Of a stretch of DNA of 64,000 nt, positions 19,411 to 39,900 are shown one piece after another. The notes beneath the pieces were generated by a model that was not told the origin of the DNA, searched no databases, and saw nothing but the letters and a program-made list of their open reading frames with translations. How positions within the stretch are numbered: the stretch's first letter is position 1; every line of letters begins with the position of its first letter. The position numbers and the translations under genes were made by a program. This DNA comes from Rugamonas violacea (lineage in GTDB: Bacteria; Pseudomonadota; Gammaproteobacteria; Burkholderiales; Burkholderiaceae_D), in assembly GCF_016461825.1 (NCBI RefSeq), contig NZ_JAEMNU010000113.1, positions 1 to 64,000 of the forward strand, written 5' to 3'.

Positions 19411-20675
19411 GGCGCCACCGCCGCAGCGGACAGCGGCGCGTACACCGCCTGGTAGCGCGCCACGCTGGCGTCCCAGTTGCGCTCGGCCTCGACGAAGCCA
19501 CGGCCGCGCCGGCGCAGCTCGGGCCACTGGGCCGGATTGTCCAGCAATTCCAGCACCTGCTGCGCCAGCGCGGCGGGATCGCCGGCGCTGAACAACAGGC
19601 CGGTGCGGCCGTGTTCAATCAACTCGCGGTGGCCGCCGACGTCGGAGGCCACCAGCAAGCGGCCCTGGGCCATCGCCTCCAAGGGTTTGAGCGGCGTCAC
19701 CAGGTCGGTCAGGCGCATCTTCAGGCGCGGGTAGATCAGCACGTCGATCAGGTCGTAGTAGCGTTTGACCTGCTCGTGCGGCACGCGGCCGGTGAACACC
19801 ACCTGCCCGGCCAGGTCCAGCGCCTGCGCCTGCGCCTTCAGCGCCTGCTCCTGCGGGCCGCCGCCGACCAGCAGCACGCGGATCTCGGGGCGGGCGCGCA
19901 GCAGCACAGGCAGCGCCTGCAGCAGCAGCGCCAGTCCCTCGTAGGAATAGAAGGAGCCGATGAAGCCGAGCACCGTCTTGCCGTCCAGGCCGAGGCTGGC
20001 GGCCAGCGCCTGGTCGGCCGTGCCGGCGACGGCGAAGTCGCCCAGGTCGACCGCGTTGGGGATGACCGACACCTTGGCGCTGGCGATGCCACGGCTGACG
20101 ATCTCGGCGCGCAAGCCTTCGCAAATGGTGGTGGCGGCCTGCGCCCGCTTCAGCGCCCAGGTTTCCATGGCGCGGGTCAGGCGGTAGCGCACACCCCACT
20201 CGCTGCTGGTGCCGTGGTCGACGGCGGCGTCCTCCCAGAAGCCGCGCACCTCGTACACCACCGGGATGCCGAGGCGGCGGCCGACCAGCAGGGCCGCCAC
20301 CGCGTTCAGGGCGGGCGAATGGGCGTGCAGGATGTCCGGCTTGACCTCGCGGGCGACGCGCAGCAGGCTGCCGTACAGTCCCGTGATGACGGCCAACTGG
20401 CGCAGCACCGGCAGGCGCGCCAGCCAACCGCGCGCCGGCGCGGTGCGGTGGAAGCCGAGACCCTCGACCAGTTCGTAGTCGTGGGTCGAGGCGCCCTGCT
20501 TGGCGCCGGTGACGTGGTATGTGTCCCAGCCCCGCGCGCGCTGGCCCAGCAGGATGGAGCGGCTGCGGAAGGTGTAGCCGCTGTGCAGCGGGATCGAATG
20601 GTCGAGCACATGCAGGATGCGCAGCGGCGCGCGCACTGTCGTCGCGGTGCCGGCGGCGGCGGTGACGTCGTTCAT
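19407..20675 (-). CDS. Exosortase A-associated glycosyltransferase (stp3 type)
   Basis: This 422-residue GT4 enzyme has the start RILHVLDHSIPLHSGYTFRSRSIL, which I associate with the XrtA-associated glycosyltransferase group of Daro_2409. Other marks are HAHSPALNAVAALLVGRRLG, VYEVRGFWEDAAVDHGT and the donor-site region YPRLKMRLTDLVTPLKPLEAMAQG. It works in the cytoplasm on the lipid-linked saccharide. The gene overlaps both neighbours (amidotransferase upstream, GT4 downstream) by 4 bp. The specific sugar is unknown. Confidence 0.88.
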   Translation of the reverse strand: MNDVTAAAGTATTVRAPLRILHVLDHSIPLHSGYTFRSRSILLGQRARGWDTYHVTGAKQGASTHDYELVEGLGFHRTAPARGWLARLPVLRQLAVITGLYGSLLRVAREVKPDILHAHSPALNAVAALLVGRRLGIPVVYEVRGFWEDAAVDHGTSSEWGVRYRLTRAMETWALKRAQAATTICEGLRAEIVSRGIASAKVSVIPNAVDLGDFAVAGTADQALAASLGLDGKTVLGFIGSFYSYEGLALLLQALPVLLRARPEIRVLLVGGGPQEQALKAQAQALDLAGQVVFTGRVPHEQVKRYYDLIDVLIYPRLKMRLTDLVTPLKPLEAMAQGRLLVASDVGGHRELIEHGRTGLLFSAGDPAALAQQVLELLDNPAQWPELRRRGRGFVEAERNWDASVARYQAVYAPLSAAAVAP

Positions 20676-22567
20676 GCCGCCGCCTCCTTGCGCAGGAAGG
20701 CCTCGAACATCAGCAGGCTCCAGATCGGCGCGCTGTAGTCGCGCCGGCCGGACTCGTGGTGTTCGACCATCTCGCTCAGGTAGGCGCGGTTGAAGATGCC
20801 GGCGTCGGCCAGCACGGGGCCGAGCAGCGCGCTGCGCATGCGCTCACGCAGCGGGCCACGGAACCAGGCGGCCAGCGGCACGGAAAAACCCATCTTTTTC
20901 CGGTACAGGATTTCCTGCGGCAGATGCGCCTCCAGGCTCTTCTTGAACACGTACTTGCCCTCGCCGCCGTTCAGCTTCATCTCCGGCGGCAGGCCGGAAA
21001 CCCACTCGACCAGTTGGTGGTCGAGCAGCGGCACGCGCACTTCCAGCGCGTGGGCCATGCTGGCGCGGTCGACCTTGGTCAGGATGTCGCCCGGCAGATA
21101 GGTCTTCAGATCGAGATACTGCAGCAGCGACAGCGGGTCCTGGGTCGGCGAGCGGCGCGCGTGGGCCTGCATCACCTCGACGGCGCGGTAGCCCTGCAGC
21201 TTCTGCTGGAAGGGTTTGCTGAACAACTGGGCGCGCATCTGGTCGCTCATCAGCGAGACGCCGTGGAAGTAGGCCTCCACCAAGCCGCGCGACAGCGCCT
21301 CGAAGGTGGTCTTGGCGCGGAACACGCGCGGCGCCCAGTCGGCCTTCGGATAGTATTTGCCCAGCGTGCCGAACACCGAGCGGCGCAGCGCCAGCGGGAT
21401 GCGGCCGCGCACCGCGTGTTCGGCCATGGCGTAGCGGTAGCGCCGGTAGCCGGCGAAGTTCTCGTCGCCGCCGTCGCCCGACAGCGCCACCGTGACGCGG
21501 CGCCGGGCCAGTTGGCAGACCCGGTAGGTGGGGATGGCCGAGCTGTCGGCGAAGGGCTCGTCGTACAGGTCGGCCAAGGTGTCGAGCAGGCTGTAGTCGT
21601 CGGTGTCGACGGTGTCGGCGTGGTGGGCGGTGCGATACAACTGGGCCACTTGGGCGGCGTGGGCCGACTCGTCGAAGGCCTTGTCGTTGAAGGCGATCGA
21701 GCAGGTGTTGACCGGCTGGTCGCTGAGCCCGGCCATCATCGCCACGATGGCGCTGGAGTCGACGCCACCGGACAGGAAGGCGCCCAACGGCACCTCGGCC
21801 ACCAAGCGGATGCGCACCGCCTCGCGCAGCCGCTCGATCAACTCGCCCTGGGCGTCGCGCTGGGTCATGCCGTGGTGTAGCTTGAACGGCACGTCCCAGT
21901 AGCGCTGCGGCTGGGCCGGCGGCGCGCCGACCTGCTGCAGCAGGGTGTGGCCGGGCGCCAGCTTGAGCGCGCCCTGGTAGATGGTGCGCGGCTCGGGCAC
22001 GTAGCCGAAGGCGAAGTACTCCTCGACGGCGCAGGGGTCGATGGCGCGCGGCAGGCCGGGCAGGCTGCGCAGCGCCTTCAGCTCGGAGCTGAAGGCCAGC
22101 ATGCCGTCGGGTAGCATGGCGTAGAACAGCGGCTTGACGCCGAGCCGGTCGCGCGCCAGGAACAACTGGCGCTGATTGCGGTCCCACAGGCCGAAGGCGA
22201 ACATGCCACGGAAGCGCTCGACGCAGGCCGCGCCCCACTGTTCCCAGGCGTGGACGATGACCTCGGTGTCGCAGCGCGTGCGGAACACGTGGCCCAGGCC
22301 CTGCAGCTCGGCCATCAACTCGCGGTAGTTGTAGATCTCGCCGTTGTAGCAGACCATCACGCTGCCGTCCTCGTTGCCCATCGGTTGCAGGCCGCTGCTC
22401 AAGTCGATCACCGACAGGCGGCGGTGGCCGAAACCCAGGCCCGGTTCGACATACACGTTGCCCTGGTCGGGGCCGCGATGGTGCTGCGTCTCGTTCATGC
22501 GGCGCAGCAGCGCCGGGTCGATGCTGCGGCCGCCACGGGTGTCCAACATGCCTACTATTCCGCACAT
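20672..22567 (-). CDS. XrtA/PEP-CTERM amidotransferase (asparagine synthase type)
   Basis: The 631-residue protein is a full glutamine-dependent asparagine-synthetase homologue. It starts MCGIVGMLD, so the nucleophile Cys2 is present; NGEIYN and the glutaminase pocket follow. The synthetase domain has the PP-loop SGGVDSS at residues 266-272 and SGDGGDENFAGYRRY. It belongs to the amidotransferase group found in exosortase A loci and probably amidates a uronic-acid or amino-acid carboxyl in the polymer; true asparagine synthesis is less likely in this setting. It is the only one of three asparagine-synthase homologues in the window with a standard Cys2. It overlaps the next gene by 4 bp and the preceding one by 13 bp. 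Confidence 0.9.
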   Translation of the reverse strand: MCGIVGMLDTRGGRSIDPALLRRMNETQHHRGPDQGNVYVEPGLGFGHRRLSVIDLSSGLQPMGNEDGSVMVCYNGEIYNYRELMAELQGLGHVFRTRCDTEVIVHAWEQWGAACVERFRGMFAFGLWDRNQRQLFLARDRLGVKPLFYAMLPDGMLAFSSELKALRSLPGLPRAIDPCAVEEYFAFGYVPEPRTIYQGALKLAPGHTLLQQVGAPPAQPQRYWDVPFKLHHGMTQRDAQGELIERLREAVRIRLVAEVPLGAFLSGGVDSSAIVAMMAGLSDQPVNTCSIAFNDKAFDESAHAAQVAQLYRTAHHADTVDTDDYSLLDTLADLYDEPFADSSAIPTYRVCQLARRRVTVALSGDGGDENFAGYRRYRYAMAEHAVRGRIPLALRRSVFGTLGKYYPKADWAPRVFRAKTTFEALSRGLVEAYFHGVSLMSDQMRAQLFSKPFQQKLQGYRAVEVMQAHARRSPTQDPLSLLQYLDLKTYLPGDILTKVDRASMAHALEVRVPLLDHQLVEWVSGLPPEMKLNGGEGKYVFKKSLEAHLPQEILYRKKMGFSVPLAAWFRGPLRERMRSALLGPVLADAGIFNRAYLSEMVEHHESGRRDYSAPIWSLLMFEAFLRKEAAA

Positions 22568-33527: not shown

Positions 33528-33869
33528 CGATTCAACTCGCCAAAGTGGGGTTGGGGCATCCCGAGCGGCGCTCGTGAACGTTGTTTAAATAGCATTTCAA
33601 GACGCCTATCATACCCGAACCGGGCAATATTTGTTGTTATAAATTTATTTCAAAACTAGCATCTAATTAGCCTTCGCCACGGGCGTGCGCGGCCAAGGCC
33701 GCCCCGCCACAGGCGGCGCGGGCCGACCTGCGGAGGCGCACCGGCCCGAAAAAAAATTCTCTTTCAACAACGACCTTCGGCGGCCGGTTGTGGTATAAAA
33801 TAAACATGCAAAAATGAAAACACTGCGTGCTTCCCATGCATGTTTTGCCGCCACCAGAGAGGAAATGCC
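33528..33869. promoter_or_regulatory. Divergent promoter region, 342 bp
   Basis: This intergenic region separates the minus-strand exopolysaccharide operon from the plus-strand export gene. It has two AT-rich islands (about 33580-33665 and 33750-33815) around a GC-rich middle. Candidate -10 boxes are TATAAA on the plus strand at 33793-33798 and TATGAT on the minus strand near 33610; neither has a clear -35. I see no gene and no convincing sigma-54 site here. Confidence 0.5.
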
Positions 33870-34502
33870 ATGAGGTTTGCGTCAATGAAATCGAGCTGGA
33901 CGCGCCGCGCCGCGCCGCTGCTGCTGCTCGCCCTGGGTGCTTGCTCGAGCCTGCGCCAGGCGCCGCTCGAAGCGCCGGCCGCCGCCGCCGTCCCCGCCAG
34001 CGAGTACCGCATCGGTCCCGGCGACAACATCAACATCATGGTCTGGCACAATCCCGAGGTGTCGATGACGGTGCCGGTGCGGCCCGACGGCATGATCACC
34101 ACGCCGCTGGTCGAAGACCTCGAAGCCAGCGGAAAAACCTCGACCCAGTTGGCGCGCGACATCGAGAAGAAGCTGGCCAAGTACCTGCAGGAACCGATGG
34201 TGACGGTGATCGTCACCGGCTTCGTCGGCATCTACTCGGAGCAGATCCGCGTCATCGGCCAGGCGGCGCGGCCGCAGGCGCTGCCCTACCGGCGCGACAT
34301 GTCGCTGATGGACGTGCTGATCGCCGTCGGCGGCGTCACCGAGTTCGCCGCCGGCAACCGCGCCAGCATCATCCGCACCATCGACGGCAAACCACACAAG
34401 TTGGCGGTGCGCCTGAGCGACCTGATCCGCGAAGGCGACATCTCGGCCAACCTGCCGATGCGCCCGGGCGACGTGCTGGTGATCCCGGAGAGCTTCTTCT
34501 AG
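33870..34502 (+). CDS. XrtA-associated polysaccharide export lipoprotein (Wza-like)
   Basis: The 210-residue protein has a lipoprotein signal peptide with lipobox LALGAC (Cys near residue 24) and a polysaccharide export (Poly_export) domain starting YRIGPGDNINIMVWHNPEVSMTVPVRPDGMITTPLVEDLEASG, followed by a SLBB-like segment (IRVIGQAARPQALPYRRDMSLMDVLIAVGGVTEFA). It is shorter than E. coli Wza, as usual in this group. It forms the periplasmic/outer-membrane channel for the polymer together with the chain-length determinant encoded divergently. The ATG at 33870 has GAGAGGAA upstream; the 30-nt longer frame lacks a site. Confidence 0.92.
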   Translation: MRFASMKSSWTRRAAPLLLLALGACSSLRQAPLEAPAAAAVPASEYRIGPGDNINIMVWHNPEVSMTVPVRPDGMITTPLVEDLEASGKTSTQLARDIEKKLAKYLQEPMVTVIVTGFVGIYSEQIRVIGQAARPQALPYRRDMSLMDVLIAVGGVTEFAAGNRASIIRTIDGKPHKLAVRLSDLIREGDISANLPMRPGDVLVIPESFF

Positions 34503-34521: not shown

Positions 34522-34540
34522 GTGTCGGAAAACTTTACAC
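34522..34540 (+). promoter_or_regulatory. 19-bp upstream element, copy 1
   Basis: GTGTCGGAAAACTTTACAC recurs almost unchanged at 37706-37724 (17 of 19 identical). Both copies lie upstream of a sigma-54 promoter, here about 95 bp from it, so this is a likely enhancer-binding-protein site. The downstream TTTTCCGAC also lets this copy form a 9-bp hairpin just after the export gene. Confidence 0.65.
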
Positions 34541-34634
34541 TTTTCCGACCGGCTTCCCTGGCGCATGCCGCCGCCCCGACGCTTCCAACGCTAAGCCCTT
34601 GATTCGCAAAGGCGGTGCGGCGCAGTAACTTTCA

Positions 34635-34650
34635 TGGCGCACATATTGCT
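34635..34650 (+). promoter_or_regulatory. Sigma-54 promoter of the HPr-rel-A unit
   Basis: TGGCGCACATATTGCT has the invariant GG (-24) and GC (-12) ten bases apart and matches TGGCACG-N4-TTGCW except at two less conserved positions. It lies 64 bp upstream of the first cassette ATG. Confidence 0.75.
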
Positions 34651-34713
34651 TTGCAACACAGCACGAAGAGACGGCAGCGGCCGCTCGCGCACCGTCAATT
34701 TTTCAGGAATGGA

Positions 34714-35292
34714 ATGGCTATGCAAGAATCGCACGACAAGCAGGAAACGCCCCCCGCGACCGGCGCCCCCGCGCTGAGCCCGGCCGGCCGGGCGCGTCGA
34801 CGTCTGGCCACCGCCGGCGTGGCCGCCTCCGGCGTGCTGCTCACCGTGGCCAGCCAGCCCGGCATGGCCTGCGACATCTGCCGCTCGCCGTCGGGCTTCC
34901 TGTCCGGCGCGCTGCAGAGCCAGCACCTGCGCAACACGGTCTGCTCGGGCCGCTCGCCGGTGTACTGGAAAGGCAACGACAACTGGCCCAACCGCATCGC
35001 CAAGACCACCAAATTCAGCACCATCTTCAGTTGCACCTCCGCCAACCGCAGCTACAAGGACGCGACCCTGCAGCAGATGCTGGCCGGCCAATCCTTCGAC
35101 AACCACAAGATCGGCCAGTATCTGGCGGCCGCCTACCTCAACGTGCAGGCCAAGCTGAGCAGCTTCCAGAACTTGCTGATGCTACAAACCATCTGGCAGG
35201 AATACCAGACCAAGGGCTATTACGCGCCGATCGCCGGGAAAAAATGGTACGCCTATGACATCGCCTTCTACCTGTCGGGAACCATGTCTTGA
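34714..35292 (+). CDS. Secreted Cys-containing protein preceding the HPr-rel-A cassette
   Basis: I do not recognise this 192-residue protein by name. The N-terminus has ARRRLATAG followed by a hydrophobic VAASGVLLTVAS and an AxA-like site (PGMA), which reads as a twin-arginine-like or Sec signal peptide. The mature part begins CDICRSPSGFLSG and contains further Cys in TVCSGRS and IFSCTSANRS, then a Gln/Tyr-rich helical half. AGGA lies five to six bases before the ATG at 34714 (34720 is an alternative). It is driven by the sigma-54 promoter at 34635 and is followed closely by PqqD-like, HprK-like and nucleotidyltransferase genes. It may be the substrate of that cassette; this is only inferred from position. 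Confidence 0.7.
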   Translation: MAMQESHDKQETPPATGAPALSPAGRARRRLATAGVAASGVLLTVASQPGMACDICRSPSGFLSGALQSQHLRNTVCSGRSPVYWKGNDNWPNRIAKTTKFSTIFSCTSANRSYKDATLQQMLAGQSFDNHKIGQYLAAAYLNVQAKLSSFQNLLMLQTIWQEYQTKGYYAPIAGKKWYAYDIAFYLSGTMS

Positions 35293-35320
35293 GGCCGGCG
35301 CCGCCGGCCGCAGCCGCGCC

Positions 35321-35617
35321 GTGTGGCGCATGAGCGTCGGCCAGTTGGCGGCCAGCCGCCACTGGGACGACGAGTTCGTGGTCTACAACAACCTGTCGGG
35401 CGACACCCACCTGCTCGGCGCCGACGCCATGCTGGTGCTACAGCGGCTGCAACAGGGCGAGGCCGACGAGGCCGCCCTGCTCGCGCTCCTGCGCGACAGC
35501 GCCGCGCCGACAACGGCAGCAGCGCCGGCCGCCGGCCACGCCGAGCTGGCCACCGAGCTGGCGCAGATGCTCGACGACCTGCGCCGCCTGGCGCTGATCG
35601 ACACCACGCCATGCTGA
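35321..35617 (+). CDS. HPr-rel-A system PqqD-family protein
   Basis: The 98-residue protein has the PqqD-like fold seen in peptide-chaperone (RiPP recognition) domains: WRMSVGQLAASRHWDDEFVVYNNLSGDTHLLGADAMLVLQRLQQGE, then a helical end (ELAQMLDDLRRLALID). The phrase FVVYN.LSGDTHLL is the recognisable mark of the version in HPr-rel-A cassettes. A GTG at 35321 gives the usual short N-terminus (VWRM); ATG at 35330 is the alternative. No strong RBS is visible, so coupling to the upstream gene is likely. It overlaps the kinase start by 7 bp. Confidence 0.85.
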   Translation: MWRMSVGQLAASRHWDDEFVVYNNLSGDTHLLGADAMLVLQRLQQGEADEAALLALLRDSAAPTTAAAPAAGHAELATELAQMLDDLRRLALIDTTPC

Positions 35618-36570
35618 CCGTGGCCGCGCTCAGTCCGACCGAGCTGGCCGAGCGCCTAGCCGGCGACGGCCTGCACCTGCGCACCGCCGGTTTCAGCGTC
35701 TGCCTGCGCAGCGGCATCGCCAGCGTGGCGCACGGCATCGGCCTGCTGTACGCCGACTATCCACTACTGGCGGCCGACGACTTCGCCGACTTCCGCCTCA
35801 GCCTGGAACGGCCGGCCGGCGCGCGCCGCTGGTTCAAGCCGCAGGTGCGCCTGCTCTACGACGGCAACTCGCTGTTCCAGCCGCTACCGCTGGCGCAGGC
35901 CTTCCCGATGTTCGAATGGGGCCTGAACTGGTGCGTCTCCAGCCGCGCCAACGAATTCCTCATCGTCCACGCCGCCGTGGTGGAAAAGCACGGCTGCGCG
36001 GCGATCCTGCCGGCGCCGCCCGGCTCGGGCAAGAGCACGCTGTGCGCCGCCCTGGTCGGCCGCGGCGGCTGGCGCCTGCTGTCCGACGAGCTGACCCTGA
36101 TCCGCCTGGGCGATGGCCGGGTGGTGCCGCTGCCGCGTCCGGTCAGCCTGAAGAACGGCTCGATCGACGTGATCCGCGACTACCTCGGCGACGCCGTGTT
36201 GAGCCCGGCGGTGCGCGACACCGTCAAGGGCACGGTGGCCCATCTGAAAGCGCCAAGCGACAGCGTGGCGCGCGCCGCCGAGACGGCGCGCCCGGCCTGG
36301 CTGCTGTTCCCCCAGTACCGCGCCGGCGCCGCCCTGCGCCTCGACGCGCTGAGCCGGGCGCAAGCCTTCATGCGCGTGGCCGGCAACAGCTTCAACTACA
36401 GCCTGCTGGGCCGCCGCGGTTTCGACGCCCTCGGCCGGGTGGTCGACGGCAGCGCCGGCTACACCTTGGAGTACGGCCAGCTCGACGACGCGCTGGCCCT
36501 GTTCGAGCGGCTGGCCGAGCAACAACTGGCCGAGCAACTGGCCGCACGGCCGGCCGAGCGCGCCGCATGA
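35611..36570 (+). CDS. HprK-related kinase A
   Basis: This 319-residue protein is related to HPr(Ser) kinase/phosphatase but has no HPr target in sight. The P-loop PAPPGSGKST is at residues 134-143, in the context EFLIVHAAVVEKHGCAAILPAPPGSGKSTLCAALV, followed by LLSDELTLI and the RPVSLKNGSIDVI segment. It should phosphorylate (or dephosphorylate) a serine or another group on an unknown partner, perhaps the secreted protein encoded upstream before export. It is the defining gene of the HPr-rel-A cassette. It overlaps the PqqD-like gene by 7 bp and the nucleotidyltransferase by 4 bp, so all three are coupled. Confidence 0.9.
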   Translation: MLTVAALSPTELAERLAGDGLHLRTAGFSVCLRSGIASVAHGIGLLYADYPLLAADDFADFRLSLERPAGARRWFKPQVRLLYDGNSLFQPLPLAQAFPMFEWGLNWCVSSRANEFLIVHAAVVEKHGCAAILPAPPGSGKSTLCAALVGRGGWRLLSDELTLIRLGDGRVVPLPRPVSLKNGSIDVIRDYLGDAVLSPAVRDTVKGTVAHLKAPSDSVARAAETARPAWLLFPQYRAGAALRLDALSRAQAFMRVAGNSFNYSLLGRRGFDALGRVVDGSAGYTLEYGQLDDALALFERLAEQQLAEQLAARPAERAA

Positions 36571-37661
36571 GGCGGCCGCCGCTGGTCCTGCGCGCCATGC
36601 GCCAGCCGGAACTGTGCGTCGGCCTCTGCGCCGGCGACTGGGACCTGCTGCTGCGCCAGGCCGGCGCCGCCCATCTGCTGGCCAGCCTGGCGGCCATGTT
36701 GGCCGAGCGCCAGCTGCTGGCCCAGGTGCCGGAGCGGCCGCGCGCCCACCTGGGCTGGGCGCAGGCGCTGGCCGAGCGCCACGCCCAGGCGGTGCAGTGG
36801 GAGGTGCGCGAGATCGCCCGCGCGCTGGCCGGCCTGCAGCTGCCGCTGATCCTGTTGAAGGGCGCCGCCTACGCCATGGCCGCGCTGCCCACCGCGCGCG
36901 GCCGGCTGTTCTCCGACATCGACATCCTGGTGCCGAAGGACAGCCTGGACGAGGTCGAGGCGGCGCTGATGCTGCACGGCTGGGTGGCCCAGCACCAGGA
37001 CGCCTACGACCAGCGCTACTACCGCGAGTGGATGCACGAGCTGCCGCCGATGCAGCACGCGCGGCGCCAGACCTTCATCGACGTGCACCACGCCATCCTG
37101 CCGCCCACCGCCGCCGCCCGGCCCGATCCGGCGCTGCTGCGCGCGGCGGCGCGGCCGCTGCCCGGCCACGCCGGCCTGCAGACGCTGGCGCCGCTCGACC
37201 TGGTGCTGCACAGCGCCACCCACCTGTTCTACGACAGCGAATTGAGCCACGGCCTGCGCGACCTGGTCGACATCCACCGCCTGCTGCTGCAATACGGCGC
37301 CGAGGCCGGCTTCTACCAGCGCCTGGCCGAACGGGCCGCCCGCCTGCAACTGCAACGGCCGCTGTTCTACGCGCTGCGCTACAGCGCCCGGCTGCTGCAC
37401 ACGCCGGTGCCGGCCTATCTGAGCGACGCCGGCGCCGCCGCCGCGCCGGCCGCCTGGCGGCTGGCCCTGATGGACGCCCTGTTCAGCCGCGCCCTGCTGC
37501 CGCGCCACGCCAGTTGCGACGACGCTTGCAGCGGCGCCGCCCGCTTCCTGCTCTACATCCGCGGCAACTGGCTGCGCATGCCGCCGCTGCTGCTGACCCG
37601 CCACCTGCTGCACAAGGCCTTGCTGTCGCCCAAGGCCGAACCGGGCGCCGACCCGGCCTGA
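36567..37661 (+). CDS. Nucleotidyltransferase-fold protein of the HPr-rel-A cassette
   Basis: The 364-residue protein has the minimal nucleotidyltransferase signature LLKGAAYAMAAL (from residue 96) and GRLFSDIDILVPKDSLDEVEAAL (about 113-133), where SDIDIL carries the two catalytic Asp residues. The rest is helical, with DVHHAILP and HSATHLFYDSELSHGLRDLVDIHRLL, typical of the family linked to PqqD/HprK-like genes. It may transfer a nucleotide or phosphosugar to a peptide or sugar; the substrate is unknown. The ATG overlaps the kinase stop by 4 bp. Confidence 0.85.
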   Translation: MRRPPLVLRAMRQPELCVGLCAGDWDLLLRQAGAAHLLASLAAMLAERQLLAQVPERPRAHLGWAQALAERHAQAVQWEVREIARALAGLQLPLILLKGAAYAMAALPTARGRLFSDIDILVPKDSLDEVEAALMLHGWVAQHQDAYDQRYYREWMHELPPMQHARRQTFIDVHHAILPPTAAARPDPALLRAAARPLPGHAGLQTLAPLDLVLHSATHLFYDSELSHGLRDLVDIHRLLLQYGAEAGFYQRLAERAARLQLQRPLFYALRYSARLLHTPVPAYLSDAGAAAAPAAWRLALMDALFSRALLPRHASCDDACSGAARFLLYIRGNWLRMPPLLLTRHLLHKALLSPKAEPGADPA

Positions 37662-37705
37662 AGCGGCGGGGCGGCCAAGTCGGCCGGCGATGCCGCCGAC
37701 AAACA

Positions 37706-37724
37706 GTGTCGGAATTCTTTACAC
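37706..37724 (+). promoter_or_regulatory. 19-bp upstream element, copy 2
   Basis: GTGTCGGAATTCTTTACAC is the second copy of the element at 34522. Its ends GTGT/ACAC form an imperfect dyad. It lies 62 bp upstream of a sigma-54 promoter, a spacing that suits activator binding. Confidence 0.7.
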
Positions 37725-37786
37725 CGGCGGCGGCCGGTGGCCAGGTACAGCATGCAAGTCATTGATTTTCATCAATAAGCGTGCCC

Positions 37787-37802
37787 TGGCCCAATTCCTG
37801 CT
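37787..37802 (+). promoter_or_regulatory. Sigma-54 promoter of the PEP-CTERM gene
   Basis: TGGCCCAATTCCTGCT has GG and GC ten bases apart and fits the -24/-12 consensus with three mismatches outside the invariant bases. It lies 75 bp upstream of the ATG at 37877. PEP-CTERM genes in Zoogloea are known to need RpoN with PrsK/PrsR, which agrees. Confidence 0.72.
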
Positions 37803-38856: not shown

Positions 38857-39900
38857 ATGAATGCAAGTTTCATCCCCCAACTGGCGCGCATCGGCGCCCT
38901 GGCGCCGTCGGCCGACAACAGCCAGCCGTGGACCCTGCGCTGGGACGGCCGCGAGCTGTCGCTCAACTATGCCGACCGGCACGGCGCCGGCGGCGTCTTC
39001 AACGCCGACAGCCACGCCACGCTGATGGCGGTCGGCGCGGTGCTGGAAAACCTCGACATGGCGCTGGCCGCCAATGGCCTGGCGGCCGACTGGCGCATGG
39101 GCAACGGCGGCGGCCAGCCCTACGCCGCGCTGGGCCTGCCCCGCCTGCCGCCGCGCTTCAGCGCGCCGGACGGCCCGCTGCTGCGCCACACCAACCGGCT
39201 CGGCTTCCGCGCCACGCCGCTGCCGGCCGACCTGATCTCCCAGCTCGGCCTGGGCGACGACCGCGCGCTCAAGCTGCTGGTCGAGCGCGGCCAGCGCAAG
39301 CGCCTGGTGCGGCTGGTGCGGCTGTGCTCGGAGGCGCGCTTTTGCAACCGGGCGCTGCACGACTGGCTGTTCGACAGCCTGCGCCACACGCCGCAGCAGG
39401 TGGCGCGCGGCGACGGCCTCGATGTCGACAGCCTGGGCCTGCCGCCCGGCGGCCGGCAAATGCTGCGCTTCATCTCGCACTGGCCGCGCCTGGCCGTGCT
39501 GAACCGCTTCGGCGCCTACAAGCTGCTGGCCTTGTCGGAGGTCAAGCTGATCGCCGCCGCGCCCGGCCTGCTGTGCGTCACCGGCGGCGCCGACCGCAAC
39601 AGCATCATCGACGCCGGCCGGCGCATGACGCGCGTCTGGACCGCGCTGAATCTGCAAGGCATCGCCGCGCAACCCTATTACGTCGTCACCGACCAGCTCA
39701 ACCGGCGCCGCAACGGCACGCTGGCGGCCGGTTTCGACGGCGCGATGACGGCGGTCGAACAGGAGGTGGCCGCCCTGCTGGGGCTGGCCGAGGGCAGCAT
39801 GTTGCACATGATATTGCGCGTCGGCTATCCGGCCGACGCGCCGTTGCGCTCGCGCCGTTTGCCGTTGGAGGCGGTGTTCCACGACGCCAGCGCGGCCTGA
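38857..39900 (+). CDS. Nitroreductase-like protein (Acg type)
   Basis: This 347-residue protein has the N-terminal pattern LARIGALAPSADNSQPWTLRWDGREL, which corresponds to the FMN-binding start of nitroreductase-fold proteins (R..APS..N.QPW). The second half contains GLLCVTGGADRNSIIDAGRRMTRVWTALNLQGIAAQP, again as in the Acg-like branch. These proteins may store or sequester flavin and not reduce nitro compounds. It lies between the PEP-CTERM gene and prsT, and similar genes occur in other XrtA loci. The role there is unknown. Confidence 0.75.
   Translation: MNASFIPQLARIGALAPSADNSQPWTLRWDGRELSLNYADRHGAGGVFNADSHATLMAVGAVLENLDMALAANGLAADWRMGNGGGQPYAALGLPRLPPRFSAPDGPLLRHTNRLGFRATPLPADLISQLGLGDDRALKLLVERGQRKRLVRLVRLCSEARFCNRALHDWLFDSLRHTPQQVARGDGLDVDSLGLPPGGRQMLRFISHWPRLAVLNRFGAYKLLALSEVKLIAAAPGLLCVTGGADRNSIIDAGRRMTRVWTALNLQGIAAQPYYVVTDQLNRRRNGTLAAGFDGAMTAVEQEVAALLGLAEGSMLHMILRVGYPADAPLRSRRLPLEAVFHDASAA

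Follow-up and report, generated by a model that had tools for sequence, protein, structure and literature searches.

Are the HPr-rel-A gene cassette of Rugamonas violacea and the neighboring PEP-CTERM gene pepA switched on by one and the same activator? The question arises from a stretch of 64,000 nucleotides (positions 1–64,000 of contig NZ_JAEMNU010000113.1, assembly GCF_016461825.1; hereafter the window), in which a 19-bp element recurs ahead of both transcripts. A sequence-only reading of this stretch had proposed that the two are co-regulated by a single activator, plausibly PrsR, and that the cassette is part of the exosortase regulon; comparison across species supports both proposals. 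We estimate at about 0.88 the probability that both boxes are the known exosortase-regulon enhancer, through which PrsR and sigma-54 would switch on pepA and, separately, the cassette.

The 19-mer GTGTCGGAANNCTTTACAC is present in two identical copies on the forward strand, at 34522–34540 and 37706–37724, exactly as that reading had it. When three mismatches are tolerated, these two sites remain the sole matches in the window (shuffle mean, 0.02). The element common to relatives is shorter, i.e., the 17 bp TGTCGRNNNNNYTTACA; the G and C at the two ends of the 19-mer vary there. Trimmed in this way, the box spans 34523–34539 (+) before the cassette (TGTCGGAAAACTTTACA) and 37707–37723 (+) before pepA (TGTCGGAATTCTTTACA), an exact match at both places. 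A search of the whole genome (6,927,337 bases in 173 contigs) with the 17-mer core TGTCGGAANNCTTTACA gave two exact matches, both at these sites, and none in the reversed control, so that the random scatter named beforehand as a possible refutation is not borne out. With up to three mismatches, 55 matches were found versus 44 in the control, none of them with one mismatch and two with two mismatches, so the strict motif shows no scatter. The two-mismatch sites (L003 and L004) were rejected as further boxes because a convincing promoter is absent.

Looser patterns extend the set of targets slightly. The form TGTCG-N6-YTTACA has four sites in the genome against one in the control: the cassette, pepA, a PEP-CTERM gene on contig C54 with TGGACCCGAAATTGCT downstream, and a site on contig C13 without a promoter. 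One loose-box match, L008 (TGTCGGGTTTATTTACA), was discarded, as its top downstream sigma-54 score is only 10. A two-part search, combining the box with a GG-N10-GC-type site, returned ten matches versus one in the control, although this pattern was drawn up after the two original sites were known and both match it by construction. The ten comprise the cassette, pepA, PEP-CTERM genes on contigs C54 and C82, and six that resemble GC-rich coding DNA, a call made from the letters and not from annotation. The targets seen in this genome are thus three PEP-CTERM genes and the HPr-rel-A cassette; weaker boxes would escape these patterns.

The element itself has a precedent. Ahead of 99 of 167 proteobacterial PEP-CTERM genes, Haft et al. 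(2006; PMC1569441) reported a motif of 17 nt with TTTACA at its end, then a spacer, and then a sigma-54 site. The spacer had a mean of 62.8 and a range of 32–92, and PrsR was proposed as the reader of the motif (PMC1569441). In the parts of that paper drawn on here, the module is intergenic and a few sites before other genes are mentioned (PMC1569441). The shared element fits this "motif 1" in its described length and 3′ end and is hence known. The Rugamonas sites share its architecture and are likewise intergenic: a 17-nt motif, the TTTACA end, a spacer, and a −24 (GG)/−12 (GC) promoter, with PrsK, PrsR, and PrsT encoded nearby. One difference lies in the target, which is a PEP-CTERM gene in the module of Haft et al. 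and a modification cassette here.

Conservation before the cassette was assessed in two sets of relatives. In the family set, 50 of 195 genomes carry HprK_rel_A above the cut-off (49 loci plus the window); a partial, sub-cut-off HprK match in G020 was left out. The box, with at most one mismatch to TGTCGRNNNNNYTTACA, is kept before the cassette in 44 of these 50 genomes, compared with 0.15 on average when 900-bp windows of these loci are Markov-shuffled. The second set was compiled from 80 named loci, of which 16 repeat family genomes, leaving 64, and the consensus was fixed beforehand. The box lies within 2 kb upstream in 49 of the 64 loci and in 2 of 64 in the reverse-orientation control. 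Box-bearing loci of this set include those of Sulfuricella, Nitrotoga, Thiobacillus, Rhodoferax, Dechloromonas, and a Chromatiaceae draft, and the set extends to Malonomonas rubra, of the order Desulfuromonadales.

Each window box is followed by a sigma-54 (−24/−12) promoter at the position claimed for it. The cassette promoter, TGGCGCACATATTGCT, spans 34635–34650 (+), 95 nt after its box, and that of pepA, TGGCCCAATTCCTGCT, spans 37787–37802 (+), 63 nt after its box; both have the form GG-N10-GC. At a score threshold of 12, all 44 box-bearing family loci have a sigma-54 site after the box, versus 19% of shuffles and 35% of random windows; at a threshold of 13, the figures are 38 of 44, 4%, and 12%, respectively, the random windows being taken from the same loci. 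In G003, the promoter score reaches 12, yet the GC is absent.

The distance between box and promoter follows a regular ladder. Across the 195 family genomes, the box-plus-promoter module has 364 matches, compared with 4 in the reversed control. Among the 150 listed of these, gaps peak at 41, 51–52, 62–63, 73–74, 84–85, and 93–95 nt, and the best period among those tried is 10.75 nt, with a resultant of 0.79; the module pattern allows gaps of 38–98 nt only, and the spacing statistics assume independent sites, which these are not. The gaps step by about 10.7 nt. Four gaps of 69 nt come from similar sequences within one genus (g6). The pepA gap in the window, 63 nt, falls within the 32–92 range of Haft et al., and the cassette gap of 95 nt is 3 nt past it but stands on the same ~10.7-nt ladder. 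At cassette sites in both sets (n = 91), 43 gaps are 92–99 nt, 19 are 83–89 nt, 19 are 72–78 nt, and 6 are 62–64 nt, so the commonest spacer is longer than the ~63 nt of the known module; at the other sites of the same loci, the gap is mostly 60–65 nt (29/64). Section 7 of the 2006 paper gives the average spacer and leaves helical phasing unmentioned. We read the phased gaps as a sign that activator and polymerase need to lie on one helix face for looping; the spacing behaves as if it reflected such a requirement.

These observations bear on whether the boxes mean anything at all. A loose consensus might match by chance beside equally fortuitous GG-N10-GC sites: at three mismatches the genome has hardly more matches to the strict motif than its control, and promoter-like sites are common, as the 35% of random windows reaching a score of 12 shows. 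Such an accident is contradicted by 44 boxes in 50 family loci against 0.15 expected, by 49 of 64 in the second set, and by the phased spacing, and we regard it as having practically no likelihood. Alternatively, a single upstream region could have been duplicated locally, giving two boxes with no common regulation, since the near-identical 19-mers stand 3.2 kb apart in the same locus. The spacers are unequal, however (95 versus 63 nt), and the two kinds of site are also present in distant species, where each has a sequence and spacing of its own; elsewhere, the cassette box and the neighboring box differ from each other, e.g., TGTCGAGATACCTTACA and TGTCGGTTTACTTTACA in G011. Duplication is contradicted by this cross-species comparison and is very improbable.

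The other sites of these loci point in the same direction as pepA. They include 60 further box-plus-promoter sites with a score of at least 13, and 51 of these stand before a PEP-CTERM-like open reading frame (ORF). Seven of the remaining nine have no complete ORF of 100 amino acids (aa) in reach, and two, L143 and L150, stand before another ORF. In both of these, the box and promoter lie about 2 kb past the start of the kinase domain; the ORFs that follow, 318 and 287 aa long, have similar C-terminal tails with HPY and are not PEP-CTERM-like. These ORFs are possible further members of the regulon.

If PrsR reads the box, its gene should accompany both the cassette and the module. PrsR was found above the cut-off in all 50 cassette genomes of the family set, versus 29 of the 145 genomes without the cassette, and the module is present in 66 of 79 genomes with PrsR, versus 4 of 116 without. 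The Fisher values for these two associations are 3e-26 and 2e-33, respectively, both overstated owing to kinship. Presence and absence vary inside several genera (g24, g31, g33, g42, and g44). Among the 64 loci of the second set, PrsR was sought in 50 named genomes and found in 46; the four without it are records of metagenome-assembled genomes (L150, L152, L168, and L178). In R. violacea, the PrsR gene lies just to the right of the window (C17:64928–66298, 711.7 bits), and that of PrsK adjoins it (751.4 bits). The box counts in the two sets, the co-occurrence of cassette and PrsR, and the link between module and PrsR together support the view that one activator, most likely PrsR, governs both the cassette and the PEP-CTERM gene, and a regulatory link between the cassette and PrsR/sigma-54 is very likely. 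From these patterns we infer binding by PrsR and dependence on sigma-54. PrsK would switch on PrsR; once bound to the 17-bp box, PrsR would contact the sigma-54 polymerase at the downstream −24/−12 site through looping and activate it; pepA and the HPr-rel-A cassette would be turned on as separate transcripts.

The identity of the activator leaves room for another candidate. A second PrsR-like gene, L224, is located at about 28278–29606 of contig C125, away from the contig of the exosortase locus. The box might be read by this protein or by another NtrC-family regulator with a similar site. Two proteins exceed the PrsR cut-off in this genome with almost equal scores (711.7 and 711.1 bits), several sampled genomes likewise have two, and four genomes carry the module even though PrsR was not found in them above the cut-off. 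Yet those four are drafts, 86–91% complete, and the module otherwise tracks PrsR; some genomes with a cassette box (e.g., G085, G151, and G030) list only one PrsR above the cut-off, and a paralogous reader would remain within the PrsR family. A different sigma-54 activator is therefore unlikely, and PrsR remains the preferred reader.

Several points weigh against regulation of the cassette by PrsR and sigma-54. The consensus TGTCGRNNNNNYTTACA was derived from the same family loci in which it was then counted, and the genomes are kin, so that counts and p-values overstate independence. Six of the 50 family cassettes lack the box although PrsR is present, namely G015, G055, G078, G097, G023, and G100 (loci L101, L097, L091, L084, L086, and L081, respectively). 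In the second set, 15 of 64 named loci have no box, some of them with short upstream DNA, and 5 of the 49 boxes are without a good promoter or at an odd distance from it (L160, L192, L202, L212, and L220). The Chromatiaceae draft (L168) has the box, but PrsR was not found in its genome. The existence of two PrsR genes above the family cut-off in R. violacea counts here too, as does the cassette gap of the window, which is 3 nt beyond the range of Haft et al. Moreover, at sites scoring at least 13, the −24 element is TGGCA in only 18 of 79 cassette promoters versus 54 of 60 others; TGGAA is found in 29 of the 79, which suggests that the cassette promoter is weaker or tuned. Lastly, in Aquincola, a mapped mutant was not restored to floc formation by plasmid-borne prsK-prsR (PMC9850573).

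At least four of the six boxless family cassettes belong to named Noviherbaspirillum species, and N. denitrificans (G151) has the box. By eye, G015, G055, and G078 share another AT-rich stretch upstream, which perhaps serves a different regulator.

Published work on other bacteria is consistent with the proposed control of pepA. According to a paper on Shinella, a PEP-CTERM gene of Zoogloea is under the control of PrsK-PrsR and RpoN (PMC9012009). In Aquincola, pepA depends on RpoN1 and has a mapped −24/−12 start, with a previously predicted enhancer upstream (PMC9850573). In the open-licence papers searched, no publication on the HPr-rel-A system or its kinase model was found, nor any paper linking PEP-CTERM to HPr-rel-A or HPr kinase; how the system is regulated, what its partner gene is, and what it does appear to be undescribed there. 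PEP-CTERM and PqqD appear together in a 2011 paper which, in the part available, concerns a ribosomally made electron carrier. The link that had been called undescribed is thus new in one respect: the element fits motif 1 and is known, and the place of the box before the HPr-rel-A cassette is, as far as found, the new part.

The locus as a whole belongs to an exosortase setting. Between 12.9 and 33.5 kb, most scanned genes match XrtA exopolysaccharide-locus families. Directly to the left of the cassette, at 33840–34502 (+), lies the gene of an XrtA-system exopolysaccharide export protein (TIGR03027; 234.8 bits, cut-off 180), which occupies the same position in 35 of 50 family loci. The cassette opens with a gene for a 192-aa protein at 34714–35292 (+). 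It is followed by a PqqD-family peptide chaperone of the HPr-rel-A system (TIGR04353; 35330–35617, +; 62.5 bits, cut-off 35), the HprK-related kinase A (TIGR04352; 35611–36570, +; 380.5 bits, cut-off 200), and a nucleotidyltransferase (PF14907, NTP_transf_5; 36567–37661, +; 189.2 bits, cut-off 31.2). The order of the latter three is kept in all 50 family loci. Membership in the HPr-rel-A system follows from HprK_rel_A and PqqD_rel_X, which both exceed their curated NCBIfam cut-offs; the PF14907 nucleotidyltransferase stands after them. Farther right are pepA, encoding the flocculation-associated PEP-CTERM protein PepA (NF033554; 37877–38764, +; 156.2 bits, cut-off 80), and the gene of PrsT, the tetratricopeptide-repeat protein of the PrsK/PrsR/PrsT set (TIGR02917; 39967–42825, +; 821.5 bits, cut-off 312.2). 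Between the two, at 38857–39900, lies a gene for an Acg-like flavin mononucleotide oxidoreductase, which scores under the model cut-off.

The structural model of the kinase (pLDDT, a predicted confidence score, of 94.5) aligns with a PEPCK at a Z of 15.3 and with Lactobacillus casei HprK/P (PDB 1kkl) at a Z of 12.3 and a root-mean-square deviation of 3.1 over 138 residues; an HprK/PEPCK fold is predicted. The first cassette protein is less readily placed. It has no Pfam or NCBIfam match, a Foldseek search of the PDB gave nothing at E ≤ 0.001 (three matches up to E 10), and none of the 14 chains compared by VIA-align reached a Z of 2, which does not imply a new fold. Its model has a confident core from about residue 78, the N-terminal part not being confident. 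In an alignment of the window protein with 40 of its 49 relatives (41 aligned, 21 shown, the 9 most distant left out), two invariant arginines stand ahead of a hydrophobic stretch, followed by Cys-x-SPSG and SPGYWK-like motifs. By eye, the N-terminus reads as a twin-arginine translocation (Tat)-like RR signal, and of 111 unprocessed reading frames, 68 match a simple twin-arginine pattern, a crude count with frames read from the upstream stop. From our own reading of the sequence, the first protein is probably Tat-exported.

The gene of this protein closely accompanies the kinase. BLAST finds it in 49 of 50 family loci and a profile in all 50; across both sets, 111 of 114 loci have a profile match, which is weak in the most distant ones. 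Between genomes, the profile matches 50 of 50 with HprK_rel_A versus 1 of 145 others (weakly, E 7e-4), with at most 16 candidates per genome scored, so that weak relatives elsewhere could escape. All matches listed are at the cassette, bar one weak second match in G151. Since the protein is confidently seen only in the sampled kinase genomes, it is likely to be the partner or substrate of the cassette enzymes.

A hint as to the chemistry comes from lasso peptides. In paeninodin and pseudomycoidin, the K kinase phosphorylates the C-terminal Ser and the N nucleotidyltransferase places hexoses on the phosphate (PMC8498205). Like these clusters, the cassette combines an HPr-kinase homologue and a nucleotidyltransferase. 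The lasso-peptide nucleotidyltransferase is one that we take to belong to PF14907, and PqqD resembles the lasso B1 proteins. However, lasso clusters encode a cyclase and a leader protease, and the four cassette genes match neither family; an asparagine-synthase-like gene at 20672–22567 scores above the XrtA amidotransferase cut-off and below that of the lasso cyclase. Moreover, a lasso precursor is short, with a conserved C-terminal Ser, whereas the cassette partner has 192 aa, a Tat-like signal, and a last residue that varies among the aligned relatives. On these grounds, the cassette was rejected as a lasso-peptide cluster. By analogy, we tentatively suggest that the cassette enzymes phosphorylate, and perhaps glycosylate, the product of the first gene before its Tat exit. 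It is conceivable, if doubtful, that the exosortase regulon holds a stand-alone phosphoglycosylation machine, in which a PqqD-presented protein would receive a phosphate and then a sugar and be exported by Tat into the matrix.

Placement of the cassette in the PrsR/sigma-54 regulon means that it is likely made alongside floc- and matrix-forming PEP-CTERM proteins. It ties the cassette to the program for slime (exopolysaccharide) and surface proteins, with a likely partner protein named for its enzymes, and the helical spacing rule offers a sharper means of finding PrsR targets. If the phosphoglycosylation proposal is true, lasso-type tailoring chemistry would be applied to a whole exported protein, which would take its place in the matrix beside the exopolysaccharide and the PEP-CTERM proteins.

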